Below, one piece after another: positions 1,112-28,281 of a stretch of 33,476 nucleotides of DNA. A program made the translations under genes and the position numbers. The stretch's first letter is position 1. Every line of letters starts with the position of its first letter. The DNA lies in assembly GCA_937911445.1 (NCBI GenBank), contig CALDQY010000136.1, positions 1-33,476 of the forward strand, given 5' to 3'. The notes beneath the pieces were generated by a model that had not been told where the DNA came from, ran no database searches, and worked only from the letters and a program-made list of their open reading frames with translations. This DNA comes from an uncultured Rhodobiaceae bacterium (GTDB lineage Archaea; Thermoplasmatota; Poseidoniia; Poseidoniales; Poseidoniaceae).

Positions 1112-2214
1112 TTCGAACCGGTTTCATCCTGCTCGTCCTTCTACTCGCACCGCTGTCGGGTTGTTTGAGTACACACAGCATCACCGAAGAGTGCGTAATA
1201 ACAAAATCATCAGATGACAAGACACTCACCATTGTTACGTACGACATTATCGCATTGAGTGATGAAGTGCTCCAAGAGTTTACCAATCAGACAGGATACA
1301 GCATCGAGATGATTCGGACAGACGATGCAGGTGGCATCCTTGAGCAACTTCTTCTTACGAAGGAAGCCCCTCAAGCTGATCTCGCCTTGGGCCTTGACAA
1401 CACATACCTACAAACAGCACTAGAGAATTGTCTTCTCGCACCACACTCTGCAACACTGCCGGATCTTGACCCACAAGCCCTCGTCCCGTATGCAGGAAAC
1501 ATGGCTGTACCGTTCGATCAAGGCTACGTATGCCTTAACGTGGACACACAAGCCCTGGAAGAAAACAACGTGTCCTACCCAACCACACTCGAGGAATTGC
1601 TCAACGAGGAGTGGAAAGGTAGAACCGCGTTCCCGAGCCCAACAACCTCCTCACCCGGACGTGCCTTCATGACGGCCACAATCGATTACTTTGAACAACA
1701 ATCTAATATGGATGCAATGGAATGGTGGGAAGCCATAGCAGACAACGACGCCATCTTTACGTCCGGCTGGACTGAAGCGTATGAAACACATTACAGCGGA
1801 GGCTATGGTGTCTGGGGCGAAGGCCACATTGGTGATGCTTGGCTAACAGTTTCCTATTGCCACTCACCTGGCGTCGAAGCCTATTATGGAGGAAATTACA
1901 CCATCTCCAGTGCACTCGACATCGATTATGCATCCTTCCATCAAGTCGAATACGCTGCAAAAGTCAATGGTGGAGGTTCAGAATCCGCAGTTGATGCGTT
2001 CATCGAATTCCTCCTGAGTGAAGAAATCAACATCAACATGCCAGAAAACAATCTCATGTATTCGGTACTGGAAGGCCAAGATCTGCCAGAGACGGATGGA
2101 TACAGGTACCACAGCCCAGTCCCAACTCAACCTTCTGAAATCACAACCGAACGAATCGATGATGAAATGGAGACATGGCTCATGGATTGGCGAAAGGCAA
2201 CCCAAGCTCTCTGA
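1108..2214 (+). CDS. thiB: ABC transporter substrate-binding lipoprotein, thiamin (ThiB) type
   Basis: Signal peptide with lipobox LLLAPLSGC; ThiB/iron-type SBP pattern; ATGA overlap with thiR (1108-1111). Confidence 0.78.
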   Translation: MIRTGFILLVLLLAPLSGCLSTHSITEECVITKSSDDKTLTIVTYDIIALSDEVLQEFTNQTGYSIEMIRTDDAGGILEQLLLTKEAPQADLALGLDNTYLQTALENCLLAPHSATLPDLDPQALVPYAGNMAVPFDQGYVCLNVDTQALEENNVSYPTTLEELLNEEWKGRTAFPSPTTSSPGRAFMTATIDYFEQQSNMDAMEWWEAIADNDAIFTSGWTEAYETHYSGGYGVWGEGHIGDAWLTVSYCHSPGVEAYYGGNYTISSALDIDYASFHQVEYAAKVNGGGSESAVDAFIEFLLSEEININMPENNLMYSVLEGQDLPETDGYRYHSPVPTQPSEITTERIDDEMETWLMDWRKATQAL

Positions 2215-2223
2215 GTTGACAAC

Positions 2224-3951
2224 ATGAAAGCGGCTGTAGGGCGAGGCGTTCCAGTAGCCTTGTACCTTGCATTGATTCTCATACCGCTCATTCTAGCACT
2301 TGAGAGGTTAATGTTCGTCACAGGCATGAATCCTTTTCAGGCGATTCTTCATCTTGATGAGCACCCCTTTGGCGTGAATGCTGTTGTCTTCACATTCGTG
2401 CAAGCCATTCTTTCAGCTATACTTACCCTCATTCTCGGACTACCCATTGCATGGTGGTTGGGGCGATACGAATGGAAACGTGTAGGCATCATTAGGGCAG
2501 CGTTAACACTGCCATTCGTCACACCAACCGTCGTAGCAGCCATGGGCTTTCTCGCTCTGATCAAAGAAGGAGGTCTGCTGGATTCCTTTGGAATCGATCT
2601 ACGCAATGAGAGTGGAGTAATCGGTTCGTTTTCATCGATGATCGGTGTTGAACACTCTGGCCACATCATTGCACTGCTTCTGGCCCACGCTTGGTTCAAT
2701 CTCGCACTTGTTATTCGATTTGTTGAACCAAAGATTTCGACACTTCCTCCTCGATACGAGGATGCATTTCGTATGCTACCCATAGGCCATGGTCGTTTGA
2801 ACCGCTTGACTCAATTTTGGTGGCCCATGCTCCGAACGTCGATTCTGTCTGCATTTGTATTCACCTTCATTTTCTCATTCACCTCATTTGCCCTTGTGCG
2901 ATGGCTTGCTCCAAACATGTGGACGCTCGAAGCACTCATGGCGGTTGAGGGAGGGGCGGCAGGAATCCCAGGGTATCGTGTCGATGTCAGCGTACTTGTC
3001 CTTGGTGGAGCGACGCTTCAGGGGCTTGTCCTTCTGAGCGCCCTTGCGCTTGCTGGGCGATGGCAGCAAAAACAATCCAATGAAATTGAACTCGTCTCTG
3101 AGAATTTTTCGAGGAAATACATTGGCAAGCCAACGACTGTTCCACGCATCGGTGTCTTTGTTGCCACCGTCTATGCTTTGACACCACTCTTCCTCATGGT
3201 TCTTTCATCTGTTCGGATTCGAAACCGAACTTCGGAATCGTATCGGTGGAGTTTGGATGCATGGGAATACGCGTTCAAAGGCGATCTTACGTACGCTTCA
3301 ATTCCTGAAGCTCTGACAAATTCCTTGGTGTATGCAAGTGGATGTCTCGTCGTGTCCTGTATCCTCGGGTTCTTTGTTGCACAATCCATCCACAGTCTTG
3401 AGCAGAATGGCCAAACTCGATTTGCTCAACTTGTTGACCTTTTGTCCATGCTTCCTCTCGCTCTCTCAGGCGTGATGGTCGGCTTGGGTGTTCTCCTTGG
3501 TATACTGAAAATTTGGCCAGTCCTATTCTCATGGTATGCCTTGCCTATCCTGCCGCATGCTATGCTCACGACACCTTTTGTTGTGCGCATATTGCTTCCT
3601 GCGATGCGTGAAATTGATTCATACTATGATGATACAGGAAAGGTTCTGGGCTACACCACAGTGCAGCGATTCGTCCGAATCAAACTTCCACTTCTGAAGC
3701 CACAAATCGTTGTTGCGGCAGCATTGTCGATGGCCTTCTCACTAGGTGAATTCGGAGCTTCTTGGATACTCTTGCGTTCAGGAGCCTGGGACACATTACC
3801 TGTCTTAGTCGATCAGTTGATGTCCAGACCGAAATACTTCGAACTTGTCGAACCAATTGCCATGGCTACTGCGACCATCCTCATGTGCATGACATTCCTA
3901 TTGTTTGTTATTGCTGAACGATTTCGCAGTCATCAAGGGGGTGGTTTCTGA
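2224..3951 (+). CDS. thiP: ABC transporter permease, fused two-domain ThiP type
   Basis: 575 aa with two binding-protein-dependent permease halves, many TM segments; between SBP and ATPase genes. Confidence 0.8.
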   Translation: MKAAVGRGVPVALYLALILIPLILALERLMFVTGMNPFQAILHLDEHPFGVNAVVFTFVQAILSAILTLILGLPIAWWLGRYEWKRVGIIRAALTLPFVTPTVVAAMGFLALIKEGGLLDSFGIDLRNESGVIGSFSSMIGVEHSGHIIALLLAHAWFNLALVIRFVEPKISTLPPRYEDAFRMLPIGHGRLNRLTQFWWPMLRTSILSAFVFTFIFSFTSFALVRWLAPNMWTLEALMAVEGGAAGIPGYRVDVSVLVLGGATLQGLVLLSALALAGRWQQKQSNEIELVSENFSRKYIGKPTTVPRIGVFVATVYALTPLFLMVLSSVRIRNRTSESYRWSLDAWEYAFKGDLTYASIPEALTNSLVYASGCLVVSCILGFFVAQSIHSLEQNGQTRFAQLVDLLSMLPLALSGVMVGLGVLLGILKIWPVLFSWYALPILPHAMLTTPFVVRILLPAMREIDSYYDDTGKVLGYTTVQRFVRIKLPLLKPQIVVAAALSMAFSLGEFGASWILLRSGAWDTLPVLVDQLMSRPKYFELVEPIAMATATILMCMTFLLFVIAERFRSHQGGGF

Positions 3952-4595
3952 TGTCATTGACCATTAAGCAACTCAACGTCGTAATCGGTCAATACCACAT
4001 CCTTCACAATCTGAATCTTCACCTCAAGTCCGATGAAATTGTCGCTATCCTAGGCCCGAGTGGGTGCGGCAAAACGACTCTGTTACGCACGATTGCTGGA
4101 CTCCAAAAACAACAATTTGGCACTATATTGATGAATAATCAACCCATACAAGACATGTTGTGTGAACACAGAGGCATCGGAATGTTGTTTCAGCGACCCG
4201 TTCTGTTCCCGTTCAAAGACGTGCTCGGTAACATCCTTTTCGCGTACAAGAACAAGAGGCTCTGGAATATGGATGATGTTCACGAAGTGATGGACGAGAT
4301 GGGCCTCATCGGTAAAGAACAACAGAGTATTGAGACATTGTCAGGAGGAGAAGCGCAACGTGTTGTTCTGGCAAGAACGCTCCTTACCGATCCCAAACTT
4401 CTGCTCCTTGACGAGCCACTCTCCGCACTCGATGTGGACCTTCGGCGAAAGATTGCTCATGAGATTCGTGCAGTGCTGAAATCTCGTTCGATTCCAGCCA
4501 TCCACGTCACGCACGACCCTGCTGAAGCAGAAATCATTGGAGATCGGGTCATACATTGGAGAGAATTACAACCAGGTGGCAATGATGAGGAGTAG
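3951..4595 (+). CDS. thiQ: ABC transporter ATP-binding protein, ThiQ type
   Basis: Walker A GPSGCGKTT, signature LSGGEAQRV, Walker B LLLLDEPLSALD; TGATG overlap with thiP stop. Confidence 0.85.
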   Translation: MSLTIKQLNVVIGQYHILHNLNLHLKSDEIVAILGPSGCGKTTLLRTIAGLQKQQFGTILMNNQPIQDMLCEHRGIGMLFQRPVLFPFKDVLGNILFAYKNKRLWNMDDVHEVMDEMGLIGKEQQSIETLSGGEAQRVVLARTLLTDPKLLLLDEPLSALDVDLRRKIAHEIRAVLKSRSIPAIHVTHDPAEAEIIGDRVIHWRELQPGGNDEE

Positions 4596-13020: not shown

Positions 13021-13430
13021 AGCATTTGTGGCCTTACCACAAAGACGCAATGGCATTGGTATTAGGTGCTTTTTTCATCTACGTTGGTATTCTTCACTTC
13101 ATTGATGTTGAATGGTTTACACCGATTGTACCTGAAGCCCTTCCGTTCAGTGCAGAATTCTGGGTCATCATCAGCGGCATACCGGAGGTCATTTGCGGGA
13201 TAGGACTCATCCTTCGGCCGACACGCGCCATTGCAGGAAAGGCCACGGTTGCCCTTCTCATCGTTCTGTATTGGGCAAATCTCAACATGTGGATCAATGA
13301 CATTCCACTGAATGGAAACACGTTCCCATTGTGGGCACACATCCTTCGTGCCCTCGCACAGCTTGGCATGATTGCCGTCGCTGCCTATCTAGGCGAGTGG
13401 ATTCGAGAAATCAAACTCAACGAGGATTAG
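13017..13430 (+). CDS. DoxX-like small membrane protein
   Basis: 137 aa, four TM segments, DoxX-like pattern (FIYVGILHFID...PEVICGIGLIL); ATGA overlap with the DRG gene. Confidence 0.65.
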   Translation: MKHLWPYHKDAMALVLGAFFIYVGILHFIDVEWFTPIVPEALPFSAEFWVIISGIPEVICGIGLILRPTRAIAGKATVALLIVLYWANLNMWINDIPLNGNTFPLWAHILRALAQLGMIAVAAYLGEWIREIKLNED

Positions 13431-16400
13431 ACCCACTTATCGTCTCCATCCTCACCGTTTCGAACACGAATGAAGGCAATGAGAAGAACAAGAACTGTAA
13501 TCAGAATTCCAATTTGAACGACGCCACTTGAAACTGCGGAAGATGTTTGTTCACCATCGTCATCATCGGTCGAGTCGTTTGGATTCGTTGGGTTTGGATT
13601 GGTGTTTTCTGCATCCACGTCGATGGTAACCGAGATGCTGCTTTGATTGAGATTGCCTGAAGCATCAGCACTCTCGACCAATAACTCATACACACCATTA
13701 GCGTAAGCCTCAGTGATGAATTCGTGGTTCTTTTTCGTTGCAAATGCATCCTCGTGAATTGTTGTACCAGCGATTGAAACAATCTCTGTAGCGCTTTCTG
13801 AGGTGTACCACGTAACTCGGATTCGACCATCGTCGAGGACTTCGGCATCCAAATTCAACAGTTCAGGAGCTGTTTCATCAACGACGCTGCTGGTGTTGAA
13901 GTACAGAATCACATCCTCCGTTCCTTCAGCTCGGACAAACACCCAGTAGGAGGTTCCAACTTCGAGTTCAGTCAGTGTCACTGCATGATCGGTTCCTGCA
14001 AGTGTTTCGAGAACATTTGTCGTTCCATCAACAGGCTGTTGGTCTGCAAGGGCATATTGAATGGATGTAGCCGCAGAGACCGTTGTTGACCACGTCAATA
14101 CGGCGCTTGAAGAGGTGACCGTTTCAACAGACGCTCCGAAAATCTGCTGGGGAATTTCAGGCATTTCAAATCCGGTTAATGTGGCATACACATGACCATC
14201 GACATCGTACGAAGCAAGCATCTGTTCTTGTCCATCTCCATCCAAAATCATATCAATGATGTTCGGATCGTAATCGATTCCATCGTCTGCTGCAGGATTT
14301 GAACCACCGCCAAGTGTCCAGGTCGATGGTGTTGCATCAACGTCTCTCCACTTTCCTGTTCCAAACCCGTCTTGACTACCGATCACAACGATGTATCGAT
14401 AGTTCGGAATGTCATCGCCAATCACATCCTTACTCACAGTGAAGGTGATGGTTTTGGCATCAATGTCACCTGAGACATCGATTCCGCGAGATGATGTACT
14501 TCCCGTTTCAGATTGGACAGCAAAGACGGCCCCTGGTTCTCCAGTTCCGCTGATGGCGACTTCCCATGCCCATGCATCATCAATTCGAGCATTTGCCCCA
14601 TCGAGCATCTCTGTTGAACCATAACTCGTGTCTCCTTGATCGACATAGATTTGTACGATCTGATGGCTGAATCCGTTGCTCAAGCCCCAGATATCGGTCA
14701 TCTCGTCCATTTCAAGAATGAATTGAGCGTTCCACGCACTTTGGCGAATGGTCAGTTTCCTTGCATCCCACAGACCACCATTGTTTGGTGTTGCGAAATC
14801 ACTTGCAAGTGGATAGATGTAATCGCCATCACCGGTTTCGTCTCCGATGGCATCATCCAGCTCAAGCAAGGTTACCCACTCTTCAAGGTCAGGAAGAACC
14901 ATTTCAGCCGGTGCTGGAGGTGCCATCTCCTTGTCTTCGCCATCACCATAGGCGAGCGAATCAGCGAGAGCTGCGACGACCTTGATTCGTGTCGAATAAC
15001 GTGGTGCAAGCCCAATCTCGGACCAAGGGATAACAAACTCATAGACATCCTGAACGGCGCAGCCACCGAGTCCAGAACTTCCGCTCAAGACCCATTGTTC
15101 CTGATCACCAGTCTTGCCCTTTGCTGTGAAGAGGTTCCATTTGGCACGCCCATCGTCTCGCAAGGTTTCAAAGTCAAAGGCGACCATGTATTTGGATGGG
15201 AAACTGAGAATTTGATTGCCGTAGTAGGTACGGAAATTCGTTTCAGCCTCGTTGAAATTGACTGCATTGGGTTGCATAAAGTAGAGGGCTAAATCAGGGG
15301 ATTTGCCATTAAGTGACATGTTCTCGAGTTCGGAAATGGTGGTTGCATCCACTCGGACAAACACGTTTGAAGCGTCATAGCCGACGTAGAACTCCTCAAT
15401 GTTGAACGGTGCTCCTTCGACCGGTGCGTCGTAACGAGCAGCACCGTCCCATTCACCAGGTAACGCAACGCCGTCAACCATCGGTTCAATGATTGAGGAG
15501 GCTGCCGGTGACGGAACGGCTGGATTGGTCCACAAGTCTTGCAAGTACGGAGGGAGATCGAGATTGACCGCTCGATAAATGTTGGACAGATGGACCTTGA
15601 AAAGAACGTCCCAGTTCTCGTCGTAGCCACTGTCTTGATCGAGACCATACCACCAGAACCAATCGCTGCCTTCAGCGATGTACAACGATTCCCACGCAGC
15701 TTCGAGACCGGGGTCGTTTGGATTGTCTGCTTCGAAAGCAACAAGTTGCTGACGTGCTTCTACAAGACGTTGCCAGGCAAGGGATTCTTCTTCTTCACCT
15801 GCCCAAGTACGAAGCGTTCCGTCAATCCATGAACCCGTTCCAATGGTTTGAATTTCTGGCAATGTTGGTTCGGTTTCGAGGAATTCAGATGGTGTCGTAG
15901 TTACGATGGTTGGATGCGTTGCCAACCGACCGTACCATTCTGCCATGAAAGGACGGGCGTTGTCTTGGTGTTGGAACTCGGACATGAACATCCAATTCTC
16001 CCCATCGAGGGCGACGGTAAGTAGGTGTTCGGACGGGTCTTCGCCCGCGTCGAGCAGTTGTTGTCGAATGTTGTCAAGGTAGGCAATGAAATCAGAAACT
16101 GCTGCCTCTGGCGTCATTGTTCCATATTGGAAAGCAATACGATCCGAGATGACACGATCACGGAAAATGACAGCTACTTCACCACCATCAGCACCCGTAA
16201 CTTTCCACGGGGTTGCCAAATTGGTAACATCCTCTACATCGATGAAGTCGCCGTTTTGATTGGTCGATTGCTTGAGAATTTCCTCATCGGTAACCATCCA
16301 TTCGATACCGACGTCCGTTACTGGTTGAACCATGGCTGGAGAAACAGCTTCCTCGCTGGGCCACATTCCAGTAGGACGGAAGCCAAGTTCGTCTTCGAAC

Positions 16401-17896
16401 AAATCCATCCCTGTGATGAGATGATTTTGAACGTCCTCGGGCCATGCTTCTTTGTTGACGCGAATACCGTCCTCCATTGTCCAGCCTTCCATCATGAGCA
16501 AAGGCATAATCGGGTGGTAATATGGTGTAGTCGTAAGTTCGACTTGTCCGTTCGCAGCAAGTTCACTGTACATCGGCAAGACGTTGCCCATGTGGGCATG
16601 TTGGGCATCAAGGACGTAGTTCAAATCGCTCAATTCGTAATTCCCACTTTGCATGAATAAATCGATGAGACCTTGGTCACGATGACTCGAGTTGTAGGAC
16701 CCGAGGACATAATCTGGTGAGAATTGGTAAAGATACCAAAGGACTTGAAGATCGAGGAAATCTTGCGGTGGAAGCAGTTCATCGTCCATAATGGTTGCCG
16801 GTTTGAGATTGTGGAGTGTGTTGTCGTAGAGTTCCTTGTAGCGTGCACTCGAAGGGTGAAGCCAGCCGAGTTTCGGGTCATCCTCGGAGACGTTGTATAT
16901 CCAACCACTGTTCCAAAACGATTGGAATTGCATGGTGTGGAGTTCAAGATCTGTTGCGTTTGGATAGCCACCTGTTGCCCATGACCTCTTGGCGATGTCT
17001 GTATGTACATCCAATGTCTCTTGCTCGTGGTAATCGACAAGTTGTTCGATGAACGAGGGCACAAGGTTGTACGTTACCTTCGTTCCAGTATCAGCAAGAA
17101 TGCCTGGTGAATCGACGTATTCTGTCATGGCGTGGACACGGACCCAAGGCATCTCATACATCCCCGTTAGTTTGTTCTTGTAGTACGGTTGATGTTGGTG
17201 GAAAACAATAGCAAGATTGAGTGCATCATCGACTTTGCCGACTGCTGCAGGTTGAATAACAGGTAATTGGTTTGGTGACGTTGCGTTGTTGACATTCTCG
17301 ATGTGCCAAGCATGGGTGAACGTTTCAGCACCATTGTTGCTTGCTGGATTTTGCCCTGGGAACGAAGCCCAAACATTTCCTTCGTCTTGCCATTGTGCAT
17401 ACATCATAACATCCAGCGACGTAGGTGAACCAATCTCAGCCCATGGAATAGCAAGTTCGGTCACCATATTTCCTTCCCAACCAGCAAAGAGATCAACCAC
17501 GTAGGTACTGTCAACCCATGCGCTTCCATCGTAGGAAACAAGACGGAAGTAGGTGTCGTCCTCGAGAACAAATCCATAATTCGCTGCAAAAGGAAGCGTA
17601 TGTGAAAAGCCCCAGTCCTTGCTCAAGACCGATCCATCCGTTGAAGTATTAAGGTAAACGAAGAGGTCTGCTCCTTCCGAGGTAGATTTCCAATCGGTTC
17701 CATCCCATCCAATGTAGAGATTGGATGCATCCCATGTCATGTGCAGGTCGATGTTGCTGCTTGACATCAACTCGTCAGCGCTCCAATCGATCAAATCACC
17801 ATCCACTGTGATGGTAGAAGGTGTCTGTGAAGTGGCAAAACCACTCAAGGTTGAAGTTAAGAAAAGGAGCGACAATACCACAGCACTTCTTCGCAT
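13427..17896 (-). CDS. Secreted, C-terminally anchored GH57 alpha-glucan hydrolase (amylopullulanase type) with several beta-sandwich domains
   Basis: Signal peptide, N-terminal DOMON/CBM9-like domain (TVDGDLIDWSADE), GH57 motifs HQHQPYY, GMWPSEEAVS, VALDGENW, further DOMON-like domains, FnIII-like domain, Thr/Asn/Asp-rich linker and C-terminal TM. Start taken at MRRSAVVLSLLF. Confidence 0.87.
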   Translation of the reverse strand: MRRSAVVLSLLFLTSTLSGFATSQTPSTITVDGDLIDWSADELMSSSNIDLHMTWDASNLYIGWDGTDWKSTSEGADLFVYLNTSTDGSVLSKDWGFSHTLPFAANYGFVLEDDTYFRLVSYDGSAWVDSTYVVDLFAGWEGNMVTELAIPWAEIGSPTSLDVMMYAQWQDEGNVWASFPGQNPASNNGAETFTHAWHIENVNNATSPNQLPVIQPAAVGKVDDALNLAIVFHQHQPYYKNKLTGMYEMPWVRVHAMTEYVDSPGILADTGTKVTYNLVPSFIEQLVDYHEQETLDVHTDIAKRSWATGGYPNATDLELHTMQFQSFWNSGWIYNVSEDDPKLGWLHPSSARYKELYDNTLHNLKPATIMDDELLPPQDFLDLQVLWYLYQFSPDYVLGSYNSSHRDQGLIDLFMQSGNYELSDLNYVLDAQHAHMGNVLPMYSELAANGQVELTTTPYYHPIMPLLMMEGWTMEDGIRVNKEAWPEDVQNHLITGMDLFEDELGFRPTGMWPSEEAVSPAMVQPVTDVGIEWMVTDEEILKQSTNQNGDFIDVEDVTNLATPWKVTGADGGEVAVIFRDRVISDRIAFQYGTMTPEAAVSDFIAYLDNIRQQLLDAGEDPSEHLLTVALDGENWMFMSEFQHQDNARPFMAEWYGRLATHPTIVTTTPSEFLETEPTLPEIQTIGTGSWIDGTLRTWAGEEEESLAWQRLVEARQQLVAFEADNPNDPGLEAAWESLYIAEGSDWFWWYGLDQDSGYDENWDVLFKVHLSNIYRAVNLDLPPYLQDLWTNPAVPSPAASSIIEPMVDGVALPGEWDGAARYDAPVEGAPFNIEEFYVGYDASNVFVRVDATTISELENMSLNGKSPDLALYFMQPNAVNFNEAETNFRTYYGNQILSFPSKYMVAFDFETLRDDGRAKWNLFTAKGKTGDQEQWVLSGSSGLGGCAVQDVYEFVIPWSEIGLAPRYSTRIKVVAALADSLAYGDGEDKEMAPPAPAEMVLPDLEEWVTLLELDDAIGDETGDGDYIYPLASDFATPNNGGLWDARKLTIRQSAWNAQFILEMDEMTDIWGLSNGFSHQIVQIYVDQGDTSYGSTEMLDGANARIDDAWAWEVAISGTGEPGAVFAVQSETGSTSSRGIDVSGDIDAKTITFTVSKDVIGDDIPNYRYIVVIGSQDGFGTGKWRDVDATPSTWTLGGGSNPAADDGIDYDPNIIDMILDGDGQEQMLASYDVDGHVYATLTGFEMPEIPQQIFGASVETVTSSSAVLTWSTTVSAATSIQYALADQQPVDGTTNVLETLAGTDHAVTLTELEVGTSYWVFVRAEGTEDVILYFNTSSVVDETAPELLNLDAEVLDDGRIRVTWYTSESATEIVSIAGTTIHEDAFATKKNHEFITEAYANGVYELLVESADASGNLNQSSISVTIDVDAENTNPNPTNPNDSTDDDDGEQTSSAVSSGVVQIGILITVLVLLIAFIRVRNGEDGDDKWV

Positions 17897-17942
17897 GGCT
17901 TGACCGTAGATATGATAATTTGAAAGACTTTGCAATGTTTTG

Positions 17943-19196
17943 ATGGAGACAGGTCACCAAAGTGGAATTCTCTGTCACTTGACATCACTGCCATCGAAGA
18001 AGTTGTCCGAAGGGCATCGATTTGTTGACTGGCTGAAAGAAAACGGATTCTCATTTTGGCAAATGTTGCCCCTCACACCGCCTGACAAATACCGCTCGCC
18101 ATATGCTTCACCATCGGCTTTTGCAGGATGGAGTGACCTGGCCGACTCGGAACAGAACTTTCCAATGGAGCAGGATGCATATTGGTTGAAGGATTGGGCT
18201 TTGTTTTGTGCAATCAAAGAGAATCAAGGTGGTAAACCTTGGTATGCATGGCCGGAGCCTCTCAAAAACCGAAATCCTGAGGCGTTGGCAGAGTTTGACC
18301 CACTGCTCAAACCATACATCCTTCAGCAACAAGCGTTCGCTGCAGAATGGGATGCATTACGAACACATGCGAACAACAACAGCATCAGAATGATTGGCGA
18401 CGTGCCAATTTTCATCGCTCACGACTCAGCTGACGTCTGGGCGCATCGGGAATTGTTCCAACTTGATGAGGACGGTTACCCCACCTACATCGCCGGTGTT
18501 CCGCCGGACTACTTCAGCGAAACTGGACAGGTTTGGGAAACAGTCCTGTACAACTGGGAGGCGCATGAACAAGACAACTGGAGATGGTGGGAAGAACGTA
18601 TGAAGCGAATGTTTCGCATGTATGACATCGTACGCATCGATCATTTCCGTGGATTTCATTCCAGTTGGGCCATACCCTATCCAGAAGAGGTTGCAACAAA
18701 CGGCCATTGGCAAAAGGGTCCTGGAGACAAATTGTTCGATCATCTGATGACTCTCGTTGCCTCACCTGATCAAATCATTGCAGAAGATTTGGGCATTATT
18801 CCAGAAGAAGTCATCGAATTCAGACGGCGACACATGCTACGTGGCATGAGTGTACTTCAATTTGGATTCTCGGATGACATCAACACCAACCCTCACCATC
18901 CGAACAACATTCGAGAAGATCAAATTGTGTACACTGGAACGCACGATAACAACACAGCAGAGGGATGGTTTGGCTCTGCCTCCGATGATGAACAGGAACA
19001 AGTTCGTTCACTTGCACTTGAAGATGAAACAACCTCGCAGACATTGATTCGCCTCGCACAATCTACGGACTCGCCAATTTCCATCATTCCTCTCCAAGAT
19101 TACCTCGGTTTAGGTGAAGATGCGAGAATGAATGTCCCCGGTCAAAAAGGTAAGAATTGGGGATGGAAATTTACTTGGCAGGATCTCATTGGGTGA
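17943..19196 (+). CDS. malQ: 4-alpha-glucanotransferase (GH77, amylomaltase)
   Basis: SGILCHLTSLPS, GVPPDYFSETGQVWETVLYNW, VRIDHFRGF, IIAEDLGII, YTGTHDNNT. Track start 17940 is TTG; ATG at 17943. Confidence 0.93.
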   Translation: METGHQSGILCHLTSLPSKKLSEGHRFVDWLKENGFSFWQMLPLTPPDKYRSPYASPSAFAGWSDLADSEQNFPMEQDAYWLKDWALFCAIKENQGGKPWYAWPEPLKNRNPEALAEFDPLLKPYILQQQAFAAEWDALRTHANNNSIRMIGDVPIFIAHDSADVWAHRELFQLDEDGYPTYIAGVPPDYFSETGQVWETVLYNWEAHEQDNWRWWEERMKRMFRMYDIVRIDHFRGFHSSWAIPYPEEVATNGHWQKGPGDKLFDHLMTLVASPDQIIAEDLGIIPEEVIEFRRRHMLRGMSVLQFGFSDDINTNPHHPNNIREDQIVYTGTHDNNTAEGWFGSASDDEQEQVRSLALEDETTSQTLIRLAQSTDSPISIIPLQDYLGLGEDARMNVPGQKGKNWGWKFTWQDLIG

Positions 19197-19241: not shown

Positions 19242-20891
19242 ATGCCTGTGGTGGGGTATTTCACAGCAGAAATTGGACTCTGGTCGGAACTCCACACGTA
19301 CTCCGGTGGATTGGGTGTCCTCGCTGGAGACCACGTCAAATCAGCAGCAGATGCCGGCATTCCTCTTGTTGGTGTCACACTCCTCTACCACCAAGGCTAT
19401 GCACGCCAACACATTGACAGAAATGGCATCCAGACAGAAACTTTCCCAGAATTCGATCCAAGCAATCACTTGACAAAAACAGACATGACGATTACTCTAG
19501 CGCTCGATGGCCAATCACTGTCGGCTCATGTTTGGAAGGCCGACATCGTCGGACAATCAGGACACGTTGTTCCTGTATATTTCATCGACACGCATCATGA
19601 ATCAAATACTTCAGAACATCAAAGTCTCTCCTCAAGACTCTATGGAGGAGACGATGACATGCGGATTCGACAAGAATATGTCCTCGGCGTTGGTGGTGTC
19701 CAGTTGTTCGATCACCTTGATGTCGAAATGCAGGGCTTGCATTTGAATGAGGGGCACTGCACCTTTGCCATGCTCGAACTCCTGAATCGAGGATGGAGCA
19801 GAGAAGAGTTGGCAAGGCGAAGTCTGTTTACGACGCACACTCCAGTGCCCGCTGGTCACGACCGCTTTGAGTGGAGCTTGGTCGAACAGGTTGTGGGGGA
19901 CATCTTGCCAAGGGATGCACGTACATTGGTTCGGAATGCTGGCGACTCAGAAAGAGGCGCTCGATGCTCAATGTCACATCTTGCAGTTGCCCTCTCAACA
20001 TCGGTGAACGCTGTATCGAAGTTGAATGCTGATGTTGCTATGACCATGTTCGATGAACAAGTGATTCAGCCTATCACCAACGGCGTTCATCACATTACGT
20101 GGACGTCCCCGATCATGGCTTCGTACTTCGATCAACATCTGAATGGATGGAGAACGCATCCTGAATCGATTGCCAATGCCAAGACATTGCCGACAGAGGA
20201 ACTCAACCAAGCTCGAGCAACATCTCGCGCTCAGCTCCGAGACTATGTTCTCTCAACCACTGGGGTTGAACTTTCACCGGATCGATTGACGATTGGATTT
20301 GCGCGAAGGTTTGCAACGTACAAGCGTGCAAATCTCGTGTTCAAAGATTTGGACCGATTGTGTAGGATTGGGGCTGGAAAAATTCAGTTCGTCTTCTCCG
20401 GGAAGGCTCATCCGAGAGATCAGGGAGGAAAACAACTGATTCGAGACATTTTTGAGTCAGCAGAGCAAATCGCTGACGAAATTCCAGTTGCTTTCATCGA
20501 AAATTACGACATGCACACCGGTTTAATGATGACAAGTGGTGTTGATATTTGGCTCAACAATCCAATTCGTCCGATGGAAGCGTCTGGAACATCTGGAATG
20601 AAAGCAGCCATGAATGGTGTTCCGAACTGCTCCATTCTTGACGGGTGGTGGCCAGAAGCATGCATCCACGGTGTGAATGGATGGGCCATTGGCAATGCAG
20701 AAGATGACCGGGATGATGATCGTGATGCTGAGAACATCTACAAGGTGTTGGAGAACGATGTACTTCCTCTCTGGGAGGAAGATGGCGATGGTTGGTCGAA
20801 CATGATGAAGGCAAGCATTGCAGCATCAGCTGGATTCACTGGCCATCGTATGATTCAAGATTATCTTGAATTCTACAATCAATTTACTTGA
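19242..20891 (+). CDS. glgP: Alpha-glucan phosphorylase (GT35, short archaeal/bacterial type)
   Basis: AEIGLWSELHTYSGGLGVLAGDH, HLNEGH, ITNGVHH, RRFATYKRANL, SGKAHPRDQGGK, PMEASGTSGMKAAMNGVPN. Confidence 0.9.
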   Translation: MPVVGYFTAEIGLWSELHTYSGGLGVLAGDHVKSAADAGIPLVGVTLLYHQGYARQHIDRNGIQTETFPEFDPSNHLTKTDMTITLALDGQSLSAHVWKADIVGQSGHVVPVYFIDTHHESNTSEHQSLSSRLYGGDDDMRIRQEYVLGVGGVQLFDHLDVEMQGLHLNEGHCTFAMLELLNRGWSREELARRSLFTTHTPVPAGHDRFEWSLVEQVVGDILPRDARTLVRNAGDSERGARCSMSHLAVALSTSVNAVSKLNADVAMTMFDEQVIQPITNGVHHITWTSPIMASYFDQHLNGWRTHPESIANAKTLPTEELNQARATSRAQLRDYVLSTTGVELSPDRLTIGFARRFATYKRANLVFKDLDRLCRIGAGKIQFVFSGKAHPRDQGGKQLIRDIFESAEQIADEIPVAFIENYDMHTGLMMTSGVDIWLNNPIRPMEASGTSGMKAAMNGVPNCSILDGWWPEACIHGVNGWAIGNAEDDRDDDRDAENIYKVLENDVLPLWEEDGDGWSNMMKASIAASAGFTGHRMIQDYLEFYNQFT

Positions 20892-23620
20892 TCGCTCCAA
20901 TCAATTTCATCGAACTCATTCGCTTTCCCTTTACCCTTTTTTCCAGAAAAGACTAGGACAAGGGCTGCGATGACAACGACGCCAATCAACAAGGAGCGTG
21001 TCATTGTTATCGCAGATGATTTCGAGTCCGAGGTTCCTTCCGTTTCACAAGGAGCACAATCGACCACAGGACATGGTTCATCGGCTGCAACCTCGAACCC
21101 ATCTCCACAACATCCTTCACACGTTTTCATTTCACCGGGAGTGGACTGACTTCCATCCATTTCATTGTCCGGATTAGGTGATTGTGTTTCATTGTTCAAA
21201 GTCGATTCGTTTGTCGTTTCGTTCGTTTGTGTTGTCGTGTTTGTTTGATTGGTCGGACTTGGTTCCTCACAACTTGGACAACATTCTCCCTCTGCAGCAG
21301 GTATCGTGGTCCATCCTTCAGGACAAGCATCACAGAACACATCGCTGCAAGGATCGGTGTCGTACTGACAACTGCCATCATCTTCTGTTGCATTAGTATC
21401 ATAATTTGTAGCCGTGCTATCCATACAGCCGAGAATTGGTTCAGGTGGATACTCACAGGAGCCATCATCTTCTGTCGCAGATGCGTCAAAGTTTGTTGCT
21501 GTTTGATCGGTACACCCGTATACGGGAGATACGTCAACATCTGCATCAAGTTCGATGACCGTCACGGAATGTGCATCAACGGAAAGTGTTCCACTCTGCA
21601 TCAAGGAAGAACCGAAACGGACAACATCGTTGCTTGCAAATCCATTGACAGTTGTTGGCGCTCCACGGTTGAGAACAACGGACATGACCTGGTCTTCGTG
21701 CGTCATGTTGTAGACAAGGAGATTTGACATCGCCAATCTTGTGCTGTATTCACCCCGCTGTAAGGCAATCGAATTAGAGCGTAATTGACCAAGTTCAGAG
21801 ATGTTCTCAAACAATTGAGATTCCATCGGACTCCACGAACTTGCGTTTCGGTACATGTGACGATTGTCAGGGTCTGCACCTCCGTACTCCCCATATTCGT
21901 CACCGTAGTAAAGCAATGGAGCACCAGGTGTGGTCAAAAGCCACCCATAGGCTTGCAAAGCAGCATTGTACGCAGATGCATCACCAGGCTGTCCCGGAAG
22001 ACCATCCTCTGCCCATTGATTGAACGCATCGTTGGTACCAGTATCTGCTCGACTCGTCAATCGAGGAACGTCGTGACTACCCACATAAGGCACCATAATC
22101 GAACCATCGAGGTATTGATCCTGACTTCGGTTGGTCCAATAATCGAGATGCATGTAGTTCTCGTTTCCTGAAACGAACACGTTGTCAACAACAGCATGAT
22201 ACAACACGAAATCAGCTTGGCCATCCAATCCATCTGGACCCATGTATCCGTTGATTGTACCGTATTGTTCCTGGTTGTCTACGAGTGAGTGACCTGCCCA
22301 TCCCATGGCAGTCTCTCCCTTGAGGTAATAATCGGTTCCAACTGTTTCAAAGCGTTCGTTCACTTGGGCGACCAAGTTTCGAGTCGCCAAGTCTTCGACG
22401 TGTTTGACCGCATCAACCCTTAATCCATCGAGATCGTAGGTTTCCAACCACCACAATGCATCATCAATGAATTGCTCAGAGGCATCTCGAATTTTCCAAT
22501 TGACATCTGGCATATACGAGGTGAATTGGCAATCAAGCCGGTGCTCGGTCCAGTCACAATTTGCACTACCACAGATACAACCTGCATTGAACCACTCAGG
22601 ATTGTCTTCGTAGTAGGTGTGCTGCTCATGGACGTGGTTTACGACAAAGTCCATCATGACACGAATGTCATGGTCGTGGGCTGCTTCGACCAATGCATGA
22701 AGCTCCTCCGCTGTTCCTAATTTCGGTTCAATACCGCGTGGCTCGGTTGGCCAATATCCGTGGAAAGCAGAAACGTCGTGTACACCATCTGCAGCTTTAC
22801 CCGTTCCATTGGCTGCAGTATTGAATGGCGAAAGCCAAAGTGCTCCAACACCCAAGTCATCGAAATAACCAGATTCAATCATTTGCGTGACACCTGCAAA
22901 GTCACCGCCCTGCCAATCAGCCCCCTGGGCAGCACCAACCATGGGCTCATCGTTCGAGGTGTCTCCATTCACAAAACGGTCGGTCATGACCATGTAGATG
23001 AGAGCATCCTGCCAAACGAAATCAGCAGAAGGTCCTGTCCAGAATGGAACAAGTAAGTCATAGGCAGGATTTCCATCAACATCAAATCCATCGATTTTCA
23101 GAGAATGTTTCCCATCTTCCAATCCACTGACATCGTAGGTCCAAGTGCCTTGTTGGGCATCCCAAACGGCTCCGGTGATTGCAGAGGGCGTACCACTGAA
23201 GGCTGCTCCTGATGAACCAGGATGATACGAGACAACCAGAGACTGAGCAACAAGTTCAGCACTGAAGTGGGGACGTGTATGATCTCGCACACGGACTAGA
23301 GAATTCTCGATATCGCCACAATACGAACGTTCGGGATTCATTGGATCGAAGATGTATTCTCCATCAACGATGAACTTGTAACAGTACAATCCTTCCTGAA
23401 GATCGACCTCAGCGCTCCAAATACCATTTTGTTCCGTCATCGGAACTGGAACACTCCAATTCCATTCACCAACAACGGATACCTCGGTTGCAAAGCCTTT
23501 GAACGAAAACGACGTCATTGGAGATGCCGAGTGGGATGATGCGCGAACATCGTTCGACGAAAGTGGAGAGAAGAGGACGAGAATCATCATCAAAATCAAG
23601 AATCGTGCCGCGGTTTTCAT
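20879..23620 (-). CDS. Secreted membrane-anchored alpha-amylase (GH13) with N-terminal CBM48/E-set-like domain and Cys-rich C-terminal region
   Basis: Signal peptide; GH13 motifs DFVVNH, GLRVDAVKH, E in LKGETAMGW, VGSHDVPR; Cys-rich tail and C-terminal TM followed by GKKGKGK. Confidence 0.9.
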   Translation of the reverse strand: MKTAARFLILMMILVLFSPLSSNDVRASSHSASPMTSFSFKGFATEVSVVGEWNWSVPVPMTEQNGIWSAEVDLQEGLYCYKFIVDGEYIFDPMNPERSYCGDIENSLVRVRDHTRPHFSAELVAQSLVVSYHPGSSGAAFSGTPSAITGAVWDAQQGTWTYDVSGLEDGKHSLKIDGFDVDGNPAYDLLVPFWTGPSADFVWQDALIYMVMTDRFVNGDTSNDEPMVGAAQGADWQGGDFAGVTQMIESGYFDDLGVGALWLSPFNTAANGTGKAADGVHDVSAFHGYWPTEPRGIEPKLGTAEELHALVEAAHDHDIRVMMDFVVNHVHEQHTYYEDNPEWFNAGCICGSANCDWTEHRLDCQFTSYMPDVNWKIRDASEQFIDDALWWLETYDLDGLRVDAVKHVEDLATRNLVAQVNERFETVGTDYYLKGETAMGWAGHSLVDNQEQYGTINGYMGPDGLDGQADFVLYHAVVDNVFVSGNENYMHLDYWTNRSQDQYLDGSIMVPYVGSHDVPRLTSRADTGTNDAFNQWAEDGLPGQPGDASAYNAALQAYGWLLTTPGAPLLYYGDEYGEYGGADPDNRHMYRNASSWSPMESQLFENISELGQLRSNSIALQRGEYSTRLAMSNLLVYNMTHEDQVMSVVLNRGAPTTVNGFASNDVVRFGSSLMQSGTLSVDAHSVTVIELDADVDVSPVYGCTDQTATNFDASATEDDGSCEYPPEPILGCMDSTATNYDTNATEDDGSCQYDTDPCSDVFCDACPEGWTTIPAAEGECCPSCEEPSPTNQTNTTTQTNETTNESTLNNETQSPNPDNEMDGSQSTPGEMKTCEGCCGDGFEVAADEPCPVVDCAPCETEGTSDSKSSAITMTRSLLIGVVVIAALVLVFSGKKGKGKANEFDEIDWSDQVN
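21359..21520 (-). repeat. Two tandem Cys-containing peptide repeats (GC.D.TATN.D..ATEDDGSC.Y) in the amylase C-terminus
   Basis: YGCTDQTATNFDASATEDDGSCEY and LGCMDSTATNYDTNATEDDGSCQY. Confidence 0.85.
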
Positions 23621-24411
23621 TCCTGAACCTCCGATTGATGGGGTTGATTAAACAACGAATTCGCTGTGTCGACCAAATCATCGATGTGCTTGCACAAGAA
23701 CGAGCGAACAAACTCGTTCGCAGGATTATGGTAGGCATCCAGTGGTGCACAATGTTGCTGCAACTCACCTTTGTCAAGAATCGCAATTCGGTCTGCAAGC
23801 GTCATAGCTTCGATTTGATCGTGTGTGACGTAAATGGTCGTTGTTCCAAGTTCATCGTGCAAACGACGAATCTCGTTCCTCATTTGATGTCGTAATTCTG
23901 CATCGAGATTGGAAAGTGGTTCGTCCATCAACAGAACCTTTGGCCTTCGAACCAATGCACGACCAAGTGCAACTCGTTGTCGTTGGCCACCACTCAACTC
24001 CTTCGGTTTTTTATCGAGATGACCGTCAAGTTCCAGTAAATGGGCAATTTCTTTGACACGGTTCGAAATCTCCTGTGCCTCCAGTTTCTCAGTTCCCTTC
24101 ATCATCCTCAGTCCGAATGAGAGGTTGTCACGAATGGACATGTGTGGATACAGTGCGTACGATTGGAACACCATGCCAAGACCACGTGCTCCAGCAGGAA
24201 GATGATTCACCTTCATGCCGTCAATCCGGATGTCGCCTTCTGTGACGTCCTCAAGGCCTGCAAGCATCCGTAGAGTCGTTGACTTTCCACATCCAGACGG
24301 CCCGAGAAGAACCAAGAATTCCTTATCTTTGATGTCCAAGGACAAGCCCTTCACAGCTTGGAACCCATCATCGTATTGTTTGTTCACATTCTCAAATTCT
24401 ACGCTTACCAT
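23617..24411 (-). CDS. malK: ABC transporter ATP-binding protein, MalK-like but lacking a C-terminal TOBE/regulatory domain
   Basis: Walker A GPSGCGKST, signature LSGGQRQRVALGRAL, LLMDEPLSNLD; ends about 30 aa after PANEFVRSF. Start at MVSVEFEN; ATGA overlap with amylase. Confidence 0.87.
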   Translation of the reverse strand: MVSVEFENVNKQYDDGFQAVKGLSLDIKDKEFLVLLGPSGCGKSTTLRMLAGLEDVTEGDIRIDGMKVNHLPAGARGLGMVFQSYALYPHMSIRDNLSFGLRMMKGTEKLEAQEISNRVKEIAHLLELDGHLDKKPKELSGGQRQRVALGRALVRRPKVLLMDEPLSNLDAELRHQMRNEIRRLHDELGTTTIYVTHDQIEAMTLADRIAILDKGELQQHCAPLDAYHNPANEFVRSFLCKHIDDLVDTANSLFNQPHQSEVQE

Positions 24412-24415
24412 ATGC

Positions 24416-25663
24416 TCACCCTTTGACGCCACCTGCCGATAATCCATCGATCAAGAATTTCTGGAAGAAAAGGAACAACAGGGCAACCGGTAGGCTTACG
24501 AGCAAACTGGCTGCAGCAAAATCACCCCATGCTTGCCCAGTTGAGGAAATAAGCGAAGCCAATCCAACCGGAAGCGTGTACATATCGTTCGATGTGTTGA
24601 ACGTCAAAGCAAGCAAGAACTCGTTCCATGCCGCCAAGAAACTGAACAAGGCTGTCACGGCAATGGCTGGCGTCGACAAAGGTAAGACAACTTTTGTGAA
24701 CACTTGGAATTGATTGCATCCGTCGAGTGCAGCAGCCTCCTCAAGCTCTCGAGGTATGGTATCAAAGAATCCCTTCAGCATCCACACGCACAGTGGTAAG
24801 GCTGTAACACAGTAGGCCAGAATGAGACCCAAGTGTGAGTTTAGAAGTCCCAGCGTCTTCATGACCAAGAAGTATGGAACGAGAATAATAATCCCCGGGA
24901 ACATTTGCACCAACAGGAACGAGAACATCGAAACATCGCGCCCAGTGAACTTGTAGCGACTGAAAGCATAACCAGCAGGTATAGCAATGAACAGACCGAG
25001 AAGGGCTGTCCCAATACTCACGATGAGCGAATTTGTTAACCATGTCCAAAACGAATCTCCGTTGAGAATTTTTGAGAAGTGTTCCGTCGTAAATGAATCC
25101 CCAATCTGACCACCGAGAGCATTGCCTTCAGAGAAGGCAATATCGATGATCCAAATCAACGGAATCACTGTGATAGCAACGAAATGAAGCAACGTGATGT
25201 GGGTTGAAGTTTCATGGAATTTCTTGGACAAAGCCGCATTTCGCATCAAACCGTATTCAATCGCTGAATCGGACAGTTTCCTCGATGTCCAAACCGTCAC
25301 AGGTCGTCCTGATAACCAGAACAGCGTCAAGCCGGATGGAATCAAGCTCCAACAGTGAATCCAAATGTTAAACACCGTCGATTCAGTTCGCAAGAGGCGG
25401 TATACGGCAATTCCGAGAAGAATGGCACTCAAGACCAGACTGAGATTTCTGCGAACATGATCACTAACATTTGGAAGCGATGCACGAAGAGCTGCGAATA
25501 GAAGACACGATACGATACCCAGGAGAAGCAAGTCCGATTCAGCCCGGAGATAATCGACAGTCAGAAGGAGCACATTGACGAGGAAGGCTGCGACAAGCCA
25601 TCGTCTCAACATCACAATTTCCATTGGCACATACCACCAACGCATGTCTGTCGAATCCGTCAT
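24416..25663 (-). CDS. malG: Maltodextrin-type ABC permease, MalG-like, with extra N-terminal TM region
   Basis: EAA-loop EEAAALDGCNQFQVFTKVVLPLSTPAI; true start MTDSTDMRWW at 25663 forms ATGA overlap with the upstream stop; about 150 aa N-terminal hydrophobic extension. Confidence 0.87.
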   Translation of the reverse strand: MTDSTDMRWWYVPMEIVMLRRWLVAAFLVNVLLLTVDYLRAESDLLLLGIVSCLLFAALRASLPNVSDHVRRNLSLVLSAILLGIAVYRLLRTESTVFNIWIHCWSLIPSGLTLFWLSGRPVTVWTSRKLSDSAIEYGLMRNAALSKKFHETSTHITLLHFVAITVIPLIWIIDIAFSEGNALGGQIGDSFTTEHFSKILNGDSFWTWLTNSLIVSIGTALLGLFIAIPAGYAFSRYKFTGRDVSMFSFLLVQMFPGIIILVPYFLVMKTLGLLNSHLGLILAYCVTALPLCVWMLKGFFDTIPRELEEAAALDGCNQFQVFTKVVLPLSTPAIAVTALFSFLAAWNEFLLALTFNTSNDMYTLPVGLASLISSTGQAWGDFAAASLLVSLPVALLFLFFQKFLIDGLSAGGVKG

Positions 25664-28281
25664 GCTACCGCCTCCGTCGCATTGGTTTGTTTCATGTATC
25701 GCCAAGAGAATGCAAACAGCATCAGGAAGATGATGACCGACCACGCGGCAGCAACACCATAAGCACCTTCCCGGAAGGCAACATCGTAAACATACGTGAT
25801 CAAAATGTCCGTTTGACCGGGTTGGCCAAAGTACAGATTCGGTCCTCCATCGGTCATCAGATAAATCACGTTGAACATATTGAACGTCCATATAAATCCG
25901 AGAAGTGTAAGCGGAATCAATGCACTACGCAAGTTGGGTAACGTGAGATGTCGGAACGCCGCCCACCCAACAACCCCATCCAATTCAGCTGCTTCGTACA
26001 TATCCTTTGGAATGGATTGCAATGCACCGCTTATGGACATCATCATAAATGGAACACCCAGCCAAATATTGACGAGAATAACAATAATTTGTGCTCCAGT
26101 AGGATCTGAAAGGAAGTCAATGTTGGTACCGAGCAAGTCGTTCACAAATCCATCTGGCTGGAACATACCTCTCCAAACAAGGACGGAGATGTACGACGGA
26201 ACAGCCCAAGGTAGTAGCAAGAGTGTTCGATATGCAACCTTTCCGTGAATACGACTTCGGTGGAGCATATTGGCAAGGAACAGCCCAATTCCGATGTGAG
26301 CCGAAACGTTCACAACAGTCCAAACCAGTGTGAACAACGTGACGCGGAGGAATCCTTCAGCGGAAAAGACCTCAACGAAATTGTCGAGGCCAATAAACGA
26401 TTGATCACCAAGTTGCGTTTGATTCGCATCGGTAAAGGCAAGCCAAAAACCGTACAACACAGGATAGAAGGTCAAAATCGCCAAGGCCAGGAGCGCAGGT
26501 GCGACATAGAAATGAGCGAGTTTGGATTTTGTACGACCAAGCTTTGAATCGTTCCATTTCGCAAAACTTAGCAAAGCAATCAAAGAAAGGACAATTGCTC
26601 CAAGAGCGAAAAGCACTGGAGACGTATCGCCTGCTTCGGGGCGCTCATCAGCAACACTGGTGCGCTGAGTGGTCGAGAAAATCAGGACTTCATCGCCGAA
26701 CACCTCGATAAGATGGTCTTGCTCAGGCACCATTCCCGTCAAGGTACATTGGATGGTTTTTGTCGAAGCAAATGCGATTCTTTGTTGACCCAATTGGAGC
26801 AATTCGTTGACTCCGTCCGTGCATGAATCGTAATCCAATAGCGAACCATTGCTTCCCAACCCAACACGAATTTCAGTGTGCAGAGTGCCATCAACAAAGA
26901 CATCATACGATGTAGCATTCGTTGTTTCAAATTCGATTGTTATTGTGCGATAACCTTCTGCAAGCGGAAACGGATCTGCTCGGGATATGGATTCAATCTG
27001 TTCCTCAAGTTGCTGGTTTGCACCAGAAAGAGCTTCGTCTGTCGAGGCGATGCCTGAATAGGCTTGCTCAAAGGCGGTGGACAACGGATCATAGACAAGA
27101 GACATTGCTCTCGTTGTCGGAGCTGGTGTACCCTCTTTTGTTTGCTCAAGGAATCCTGCAAGCACTGCATCATCGTTGATGTCCGAATCCGATTCGAGCG
27201 CAACATGCGTCGGCATCGTGTAGGTTTCAACAGCGAATTCTTTCTGAACATCCTCCGATGAAAGCCATAGTGCGAGTTCAGTGGCAGCGACCTTGTTGGC
27301 ACTTTGCTTGCTAACAGTCCAACCTTTGTAGGTAACGAGTGGAGACATCCTTTCACCCGTACTTTCAACCGTGGGTAGCAGGGTTTGACCAATGTTTAAC
27401 CGGCTTGCTTCGTAGGTGGCCCAGTTCCATGGTCCATCAAAAATCATCGCAGCTTTCGAAGAGATGAATTGATTCTTCATGCCCTCAATTTGGGTGCCTG
27501 TTGCTACAACCCCATGTTCCAACTCAAGATCGAGCATCCAGCGCATCGCATCACTCGAACCGTTGGAATCAAGCGTTGGTTCACCGTTTTCATCAAACAA
27601 GGAACCACCAAATCCTTCCTGTATTGGGAACCACCAATAGGCAGTCTTGATAGGGATGGCTAAGCCTTGGACATCTTGGTAGGTGAGCAGTTCTGCTGCA
27701 TTGAGTAAATCTTGCTGAGTCCATGTTTCATCAGGATAAGCAAGGCCTTGCGCATCGAAGAGTGCTTTGTTGAAGATGAGGGAGAGACAATCCTGACTCG
27801 CTGGAATTCCATAAAGAGCATCTCCATAGCGCATCGCTTGCAAAGCCCTCTCTTCGAAAACAGCTCGATCTTGCGGTGTCAGGTGGGGACGTAAGTCTTC
27901 CAAGAGAGGGAATCCATCGACTCGGACTTCCCCAATCGCACCCAATTGGTCACTCGATAACCGCATCAGATCAGGTGCTTGTCCACCTTGCGCCGCTGTC
28001 ATGAACAGTTGATCTGCATTGCCAAAGGGCACCATCGTGACCTCGACCGTGACATTCGGATAAGCAGATTCAAACGATGAGACAGAATTCATGAAGACTT
28101 CTTCTTCTTTGCTTTCTGCAGCAAATGTGTGCCAGACCTCGAGAACAATCTCGCCATCAGCGTCTGTTTGTTGAGCATTTTCCTGACTACTACCAAGGCA
28201 TCCTGAAAGAAAAATCAAAGAAAAAAGCACAATGGCCAGAAGTCGCTTCCGACGGGAAGAACCTCGAGCCACTCCGTTCAT
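25660..28281 (-). CDS. Fusion protein: maltose-type substrate-binding lipoprotein (MalE-like) + MalF-like permease
   Basis: Single 873-aa frame: lipobox LIFLSGC, SBP region (VLEVWHTFAAESKEEE...YGIPASQD...AAMIFDGPWNWATYEA), linker domain, TM, then permease with EAAELDGVVGWAAFRHLTLPNLRSALIP. Confidence 0.92.
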   Translation of the reverse strand: MNGVARGSSRRKRLLAIVLFSLIFLSGCLGSSQENAQQTDADGEIVLEVWHTFAAESKEEEVFMNSVSSFESAYPNVTVEVTMVPFGNADQLFMTAAQGGQAPDLMRLSSDQLGAIGEVRVDGFPLLEDLRPHLTPQDRAVFEERALQAMRYGDALYGIPASQDCLSLIFNKALFDAQGLAYPDETWTQQDLLNAAELLTYQDVQGLAIPIKTAYWWFPIQEGFGGSLFDENGEPTLDSNGSSDAMRWMLDLELEHGVVATGTQIEGMKNQFISSKAAMIFDGPWNWATYEASRLNIGQTLLPTVESTGERMSPLVTYKGWTVSKQSANKVAATELALWLSSEDVQKEFAVETYTMPTHVALESDSDINDDAVLAGFLEQTKEGTPAPTTRAMSLVYDPLSTAFEQAYSGIASTDEALSGANQQLEEQIESISRADPFPLAEGYRTITIEFETTNATSYDVFVDGTLHTEIRVGLGSNGSLLDYDSCTDGVNELLQLGQQRIAFASTKTIQCTLTGMVPEQDHLIEVFGDEVLIFSTTQRTSVADERPEAGDTSPVLFALGAIVLSLIALLSFAKWNDSKLGRTKSKLAHFYVAPALLALAILTFYPVLYGFWLAFTDANQTQLGDQSFIGLDNFVEVFSAEGFLRVTLFTLVWTVVNVSAHIGIGLFLANMLHRSRIHGKVAYRTLLLLPWAVPSYISVLVWRGMFQPDGFVNDLLGTNIDFLSDPTGAQIIVILVNIWLGVPFMMMSISGALQSIPKDMYEAAELDGVVGWAAFRHLTLPNLRSALIPLTLLGFIWTFNMFNVIYLMTDGGPNLYFGQPGQTDILITYVYDVAFREGAYGVAAAWSVIIFLMLFAFSWRYMKQTNATEAVA

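Follow-up and report, generated by a model that had tools for sequence, protein, structure and literature searches.

The window analyzed here, a stretch of 33,476 nucleotides, carries a single gene in which a MalE-type substrate-binding protein (SBP) is joined to the permease MalF, and it very probably encodes part of a Poseidoniales type I (CUT1) maltodextrin importer in which MalE and MalF form one polypeptide, with one tethered receptor per transporter. The MalE-MalF fusion evolved at least twice, its archaeal origin being independent of the bacterial one. The architecture itself is not new; the archaeal evolutionary variant is, as far as these searches show. The features concerned are as follows, with residue numbers referring to the fusion protein.

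25660-28281, minus strand: MalE-MalF fusion gene, 873 aa; a single unbroken open reading frame (ORF) with SBP_bac_1 and BPD_transp_1 domains, conserved in 65 loci.
28198-28281, minus strand: residues 1-28, signal segment with the lipobox LSGC and Cys28 (sequence); lipobox in 43/43 fused loci of the window's family.
26992-28149, minus strand: residues 45-430, predicted maltodextrin-binding SBP domain (Pfam; Foldseek to 2zyn and 6ffl, TMt 0.87).
26947-26991, minus strand: residues 431-445, fusion junction, with a spacing of ~10 residues to a GYRT motif that is constant in all fusions (junction comparison).
26665-26946, minus strand: residues 446-539, beta-sandwich ectodomain with invariant Cys487 and Cys512 (AlphaFold2; alignment to the homologous N-terminal ectodomain of unfused MalF; cysteine conservation).
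26539-26622, minus strand: residues 554-581, extra transmembrane helix (TM0), already present in unfused MalF (model; hydropathy; split MalF).
25684-26517, minus strand: residues 589-866, MalF-type permease core with EAA loop EAAELDGVVGWAAFRHLTLP, without P2 loop (Pfam, NCBIfam MalF model, AlphaFold2, EAA motif).
24416-25663, minus strand: MalG, 415 aa (MalG model match); its ATG overlaps the TGA of the fusion (ATGA).
23617-24447, minus strand: MalK-like ATPase, 264-276 aa, with Walker A, LSGGQ, Walker B and H-loop.
20879-23620, minus strand: secreted GH13 amylase, closing the operon, with an AMPK1_CBM glycogen-binding module and a membrane anchor at the C terminus.
19242-20891, plus strand: alpha-glucan phosphorylase (model matches).
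17940-19196, plus strand: 4-alpha-glucanotransferase (GH77, MalQ; model matches).
13427-17935, minus strand: GH57 enzyme, 1502 aa, with a glucodextranase C-terminal module; probable surface amylopullulanase.

The first-pass annotation had placed the 873-aa frame correctly, leaving its strand unstated; the frame lies on the minus strand and contains no internal stop. Its reading as a MalE-MalF fusion with a complete permease is borne out by the occurrence of both domains in one ORF, SBP_bac_1 (PF01547) at residues 62-347 (Pfam, E 2.6e-25; PF13416 was also matched) and BPD_transp_1 at residues 663-858 (Pfam, E 1.2e-14). The NCBIfam MalF model matched residues 624-867, and because this match begins at model position 259, the E. 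coli-type P2 loop is absent from the fusion. An AlphaFold2 model computed from a 56-row alignment (pLDDT 83, pTM 0.76) comprises the SBP (45-430), a beta sandwich (446-539), a helix at 554-581 corresponding to TM0, and the permease helices (589-866). This helix supplies the extra membrane crossing that had been proposed on topological grounds, and the lipobox noted earlier is likewise present. Among solved structures, the best Foldseek matches of the SBP model were liganded maltodextrin-binding proteins (6ffl ranked third). The importer thus combines an SBP of the maltodextrin-binding fold, recognized by PF01547, PF13416 and Foldseek, with the two distinct EAA loop-bearing permeases of a CUT1 system, one matched by the MalF model on the fusion and the other by the MalG model at 24416-25663.

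The region between SBP and permease had been described as an extracytoplasmic linker of roughly 120 aa. An extracytoplasmic segment is indeed predicted, but in the AlphaFold2 model it consists of a folded domain of ~95 aa with short connectors. No Pfam family matched this ectodomain. In isolation it gave weak Foldseek similarity to Ig-like/FnIII folds (best E 0.02, TM up to about 0.5), and MalF P2 was absent among the 50 matches listed. As this similarity is weak, we call the domain a beta sandwich and give it no family name.

Unfused relatives account for both the ectodomain and the helix that follows it. In the split lineages, a lipoprotein SBP gene is followed at once by malF, and the SBP stop and malF start usually overlap as ATGA. 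Unfused MalF consists of its own signal peptide, an ectodomain, TM0 and the core, and alignment of the GYR motif and the invariant cysteines identifies this ectodomain as homologous to the "linker" of the fusion. As split MalF already possesses both parts, the linker and the extra TM are old components of MalF. Invention of a linker to make the fusion work is rejected, since MalF of the unfused sister lineages has the same ectodomain and TM. By this comparison, fusion entailed the loss of nothing but the stop codon of the SBP gene and the adjoining signal peptide of malF. The junction is spaced identically in every fusion compared, with an SBP helix, about 10 residues and then GYRT. In four unfused loci (L062-L065, genus code g19), malF follows the SBP gene in frame, separated from it by one TAG immediately ahead of the malF start codon; this arrangement may be a single step away from fusion, or may mark a readthrough site.

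A tree constrained to hold all archaeal fusions in one clade outscored the free quick tree by 6 log units (p-AU 0.68). As the one-clade tree fits better than the free quick search, a single archaeal origin is compatible with the data, and the fusion probably arose once within Poseidoniales. The free trees require three changes of the fused state, so there may instead have been two fissions, or more than one fusion, in the order.

The fused frame is widespread and maintained. Of the 86 distinct Poseidoniales loci compared, 65 carry both domains in a single frame and 21 are split, and the fusion occurs in both families of the order, the window's own and its sister family. Searches of the window's family yielded a match in 95 of 171 genomes, most of the strong matches being full-length and free of stops; a class-wide sample added almost nothing outside Poseidoniales. 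Fused loci are present in named public genomes (L094, L096-L098 and others), and the SBP domain is up to 96% identical in named relatives (MAGs labelled "Candidatus Poseidoniaceae archaeon" and "Poseidoniales archaeon"), which assigns the window to a Poseidoniales (Marine Group II) archaeon of the marine plankton. Against close relatives, where dS was measurable, dN/dS was about 0.02-0.03 for the SBP, 0.05-0.14 for the junction and ectodomain, and 0.02-0.05 for the permease core. The fusion is therefore under strong purifying selection. An apparent internal deletion in one locus (L044) merely reflects a stretch of N in its assembly. In a plasmid collection, the best annotated matches were adjoining but separate SBP and permease genes. 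Poseidoniales also carry a second, more distant maltodextrin importer (L071-L074, L038; SBP 31-33% and core 51-54% identical), which is fused in none of the loci seen and has a long C-terminal extension on its SBP.

The first-pass annotation knew of no well-described fusion of this kind in the maltose (CUT1) family; this is contradicted by published work, by PDB 6ffl and by fused bacterial ORFs. Licht et al. (2019, doi 10.1016/j.resmic.2018.08.006) characterize a MalE-MalF fusion of the maltose family, and a review (PMC7756565) calls MalE fused to MalF transport-competent. By its entry title, PDB 6ffl is the MalE domain of the Bdellovibrio bacteriovorus fusion. Genomes were scanned with the 6ffl SBP joined to the linker and permease start of the window, a query chosen to catch both groups, and fused or split status was read from the ORFs afterwards. 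The scan returned single ORFs with the order SBP-TM-permease (frames of 738-770 aa) from Bdellovibrionota, from Marinimicrobia and from one MAG labelled Calditrichaeota; in other Calditrichota and KSB1 relatives, SBP and permease are split. In the window fusion and in the Bdellovibrionota and Marinimicrobia ORFs alike, one chain runs from an N-terminal SBP through a TM to MalF. Where the archaeal protein has its beta domain, the bacterial fusions have a short connector, and they lack a lipobox. Several loci of Marinimicrobia and bacterium TMED198 (L110, L118-L121, L123) encode Bdellovibrio-type MalE-MalF fusions that group with those of Bdellovibrionota.

An assembly or frameshift artefact that joined two separate genes of one MAG would be in keeping with the fragmented state of the window's MAG (318 contigs) and with the two genes of the sister lineages. 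However, the same unbroken frame recurs in 65 distinct loci from many assemblies, down to about 58% identity, fused loci share an identical junction spacing, and dN/dS is well below 1 across junction and ectodomain, which leaves the artefact with a negligible chance. Also very improbable is that one ancient Bdellovibrio-type fusion passed between bacteria and archaea. Forcing all fused permeases into one clade was 202 log units worse (p-AU 4e-5), so the two groups share a design but not a descent, even though their domain order and operon order are alike. Each fused group has its own split relatives: in the permease trees, split Poseidoniales fall with fused Poseidoniales, and split Calditrichota/KSB1 fall with the bacterial fusions. 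The linkers are also unlike, a ~95-aa domain in the archaea and a short connector in the bacteria. As a common origin is rejected, the archaeal and bacterial fusions are convergent.

The operon comprises the fusion, MalG, a short MalK and the GH13 amylase, with overlapping start and stop codons, and the order malEF-malG-malK-amylase is kept in fused and split genomes. MalG has an N-terminal extension of ~145 aa with about three TM segments ahead of the standard core; the extension is found in most Poseidoniales, is poorly conserved, and is absent from Bdellovibrio MalG. Model matches to MalK reach position ~244 of 357. Because they stop with the ATPase domain, the C-terminal regulatory domain of MalFGK2-type MalK is absent; one unfused relative (L037) has a longer MalK frame of 359 aa. 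Together with the enzymes on either side, the operon forms an alpha-glucan utilization island. A published survey of Poseidoniales (PMC6461757) describes a maltose transporter that is accompanied by a glucanotransferase and that some genera have lost. Elsewhere in the window (248-4595, plus strand), a ThiN-type regulator/enzyme, an SBP_bac_6 protein, a double permease and an ATPase lie in a row, probably forming a thiamine-type ABC importer.

The lipid anchor bears on receptor attachment. A lipobox is present in 21/21 split SBPs and in 49 of the 65 fused proteins; it is missing in 15, and one sequence is cut off. The 15 proteins (L075-L083, L085, L054-L058) belong to genera g15 and g17 of the sister family and have lost the Cys while keeping a hydrophobic, signal-like N-terminal segment. 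Lipobox losses were found only among fused proteins, a suggestive pattern that would be expected if the permease anchors the receptor; as the losses probably represent only two or three independent events, it is suggestive and not statistical. The earlier proposal that the fusion suits a single-membrane cell fared poorly. Unfused archaeal SBPs are already lipoproteins and the same fusion occurs in Gram-negative bacteria, so receptor retention in a single-membrane cell is an insufficient reason for it.

Retention of the lipobox in 43/43 fused loci of the window's family, as if the SBP needed its own anchor, and the short flexible sequence at the junction might point to a chain that is cut after export, leaving a lipid-anchored SBP and a free MalF in a functionally ordinary four-part system. 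We consider this improbable. No conserved protease motif was seen at the junction among the fusions compared, its spacing is constant, and cutting in the 15 sister-family proteins without a lipobox would set the SBP free. As to the substrate, CUT1 SBPs are functionally diverse, and a different oligosaccharide, such as laminarin or trehalose fragments, might be imported in place of the maltodextrin predicted from fold and neighbors. This is unlikely, given the alpha-glucan enzymes on both sides and best structural matches that are maltodextrin/cyclodextrin binders.

The preferred reading is thus an intact, tethered receptor for maltodextrin, the substrate suggested by the neighboring genes and the fold. 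In this importer, extracellular amylases would cleave alpha-glucans, the tethered SBP would shut on maltodextrin and dock on the MalF-MalG heterodimer, and two copies of the short MalK would hydrolyze ATP; the imported sugar would then pass to MalQ and the phosphorylase. As each transporter contains a single MalF, it should have exactly one receptor, in line with the 1:1 receptor:channel ratio proposed earlier, which follows from the MalF/MalG heterodimer. The fusion is predicted to lie at the cell surface and, in the window's protein, to be lipid anchored. By analogy with Bdellovibrio, it is presumably transport-competent; the ATPase and transport rates of the fusion studied by Licht and coworkers are reportedly comparable to those of E. 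coli. The beta domain and TM0, ancestrally the ectodomain and anchor of MalF, would now act as a spacer and as the crossing that gives the permease core the right topology. Our best guess is that the beta domain sets the receptor's reach; it could also hold or guide the SBP. More tentatively, abundant marine archaea may have evolved, a second time and independently, a maltodextrin importer with one receptor. In this view, fusion would have altered the way the receptor is held: the ectodomain of MalF became a tether, after which the lipid anchor was dispensable and disappeared from some lineages. The ectodomain and the extra TMs of MalG may, moreover, compensate for the lack of a P2 loop in MalF and of a regulatory domain in MalK.

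As the design was already known, the added value of the archaeal fusion lies in its evolution. One archaeal order contains both the fused and the unfused form of a single importer, along with apparent half-way states (overlapping genes, and a lone in-frame TAG), and predatory and marine bacteria evolved the same fusion independently. This provides a natural experiment on why excess production is the rule for most SBPs, and on the circumstances in which one tethered receptor suffices.

The archaeal importer shares the MalF/MalG/MalK subunits, EAA loops and SBP fold of E. coli MalFGK2-E (PDB 2r6g). However, the E. coli receptor MalE diffuses as a protein of its own, a P2 loop follows TM3 in E. 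coli MalF, and E. coli MalK carries a regulatory domain, whereas the archaeal receptor is fused to MalF and the latter two elements are lacking. Like the SBP-TMD fusions OpuA and GlnPQ, the archaeal receptor is covalently tethered to its channel. Those importers have at least two SBDs on a homodimeric TMD (two SBDs in OpuA and tandem SBDs per TMD in GlnPQ, according to published abstracts), while the archaeal system is a CUT1-family heterodimer with one SBD, MalG being encoded by a separate gene without an SBD. The Bdellovibrio bacteriovorus fusion transporter likewise has a single chain in which the maltodextrin SBP precedes MalF and an extra TM lies in between, with MalG and MalK encoded directly downstream (an order seen in the Bdellovibrio relatives L100 and L103) and, presumably, one receptor per transporter. 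The archaeal fusion differs in its independent origin, in the beta domain of ~95 aa, with its two invariant cysteines, that separates SBP and TM, in its length (873 aa versus 738-770 aa for the bacterial stop-to-stop frames), in the lipobox of the window protein, in a MalK without C-terminal domain and in a MalG with extra N-terminal TMs. A further close system is the unfused Poseidoniales importer (L031-L037, L062-L070), which has the same operon, SBP and MalF ectodomain, TM0 and core, but in which SBP and MalF are encoded by two overlapping or abutting genes and MalF retains its own signal peptide.
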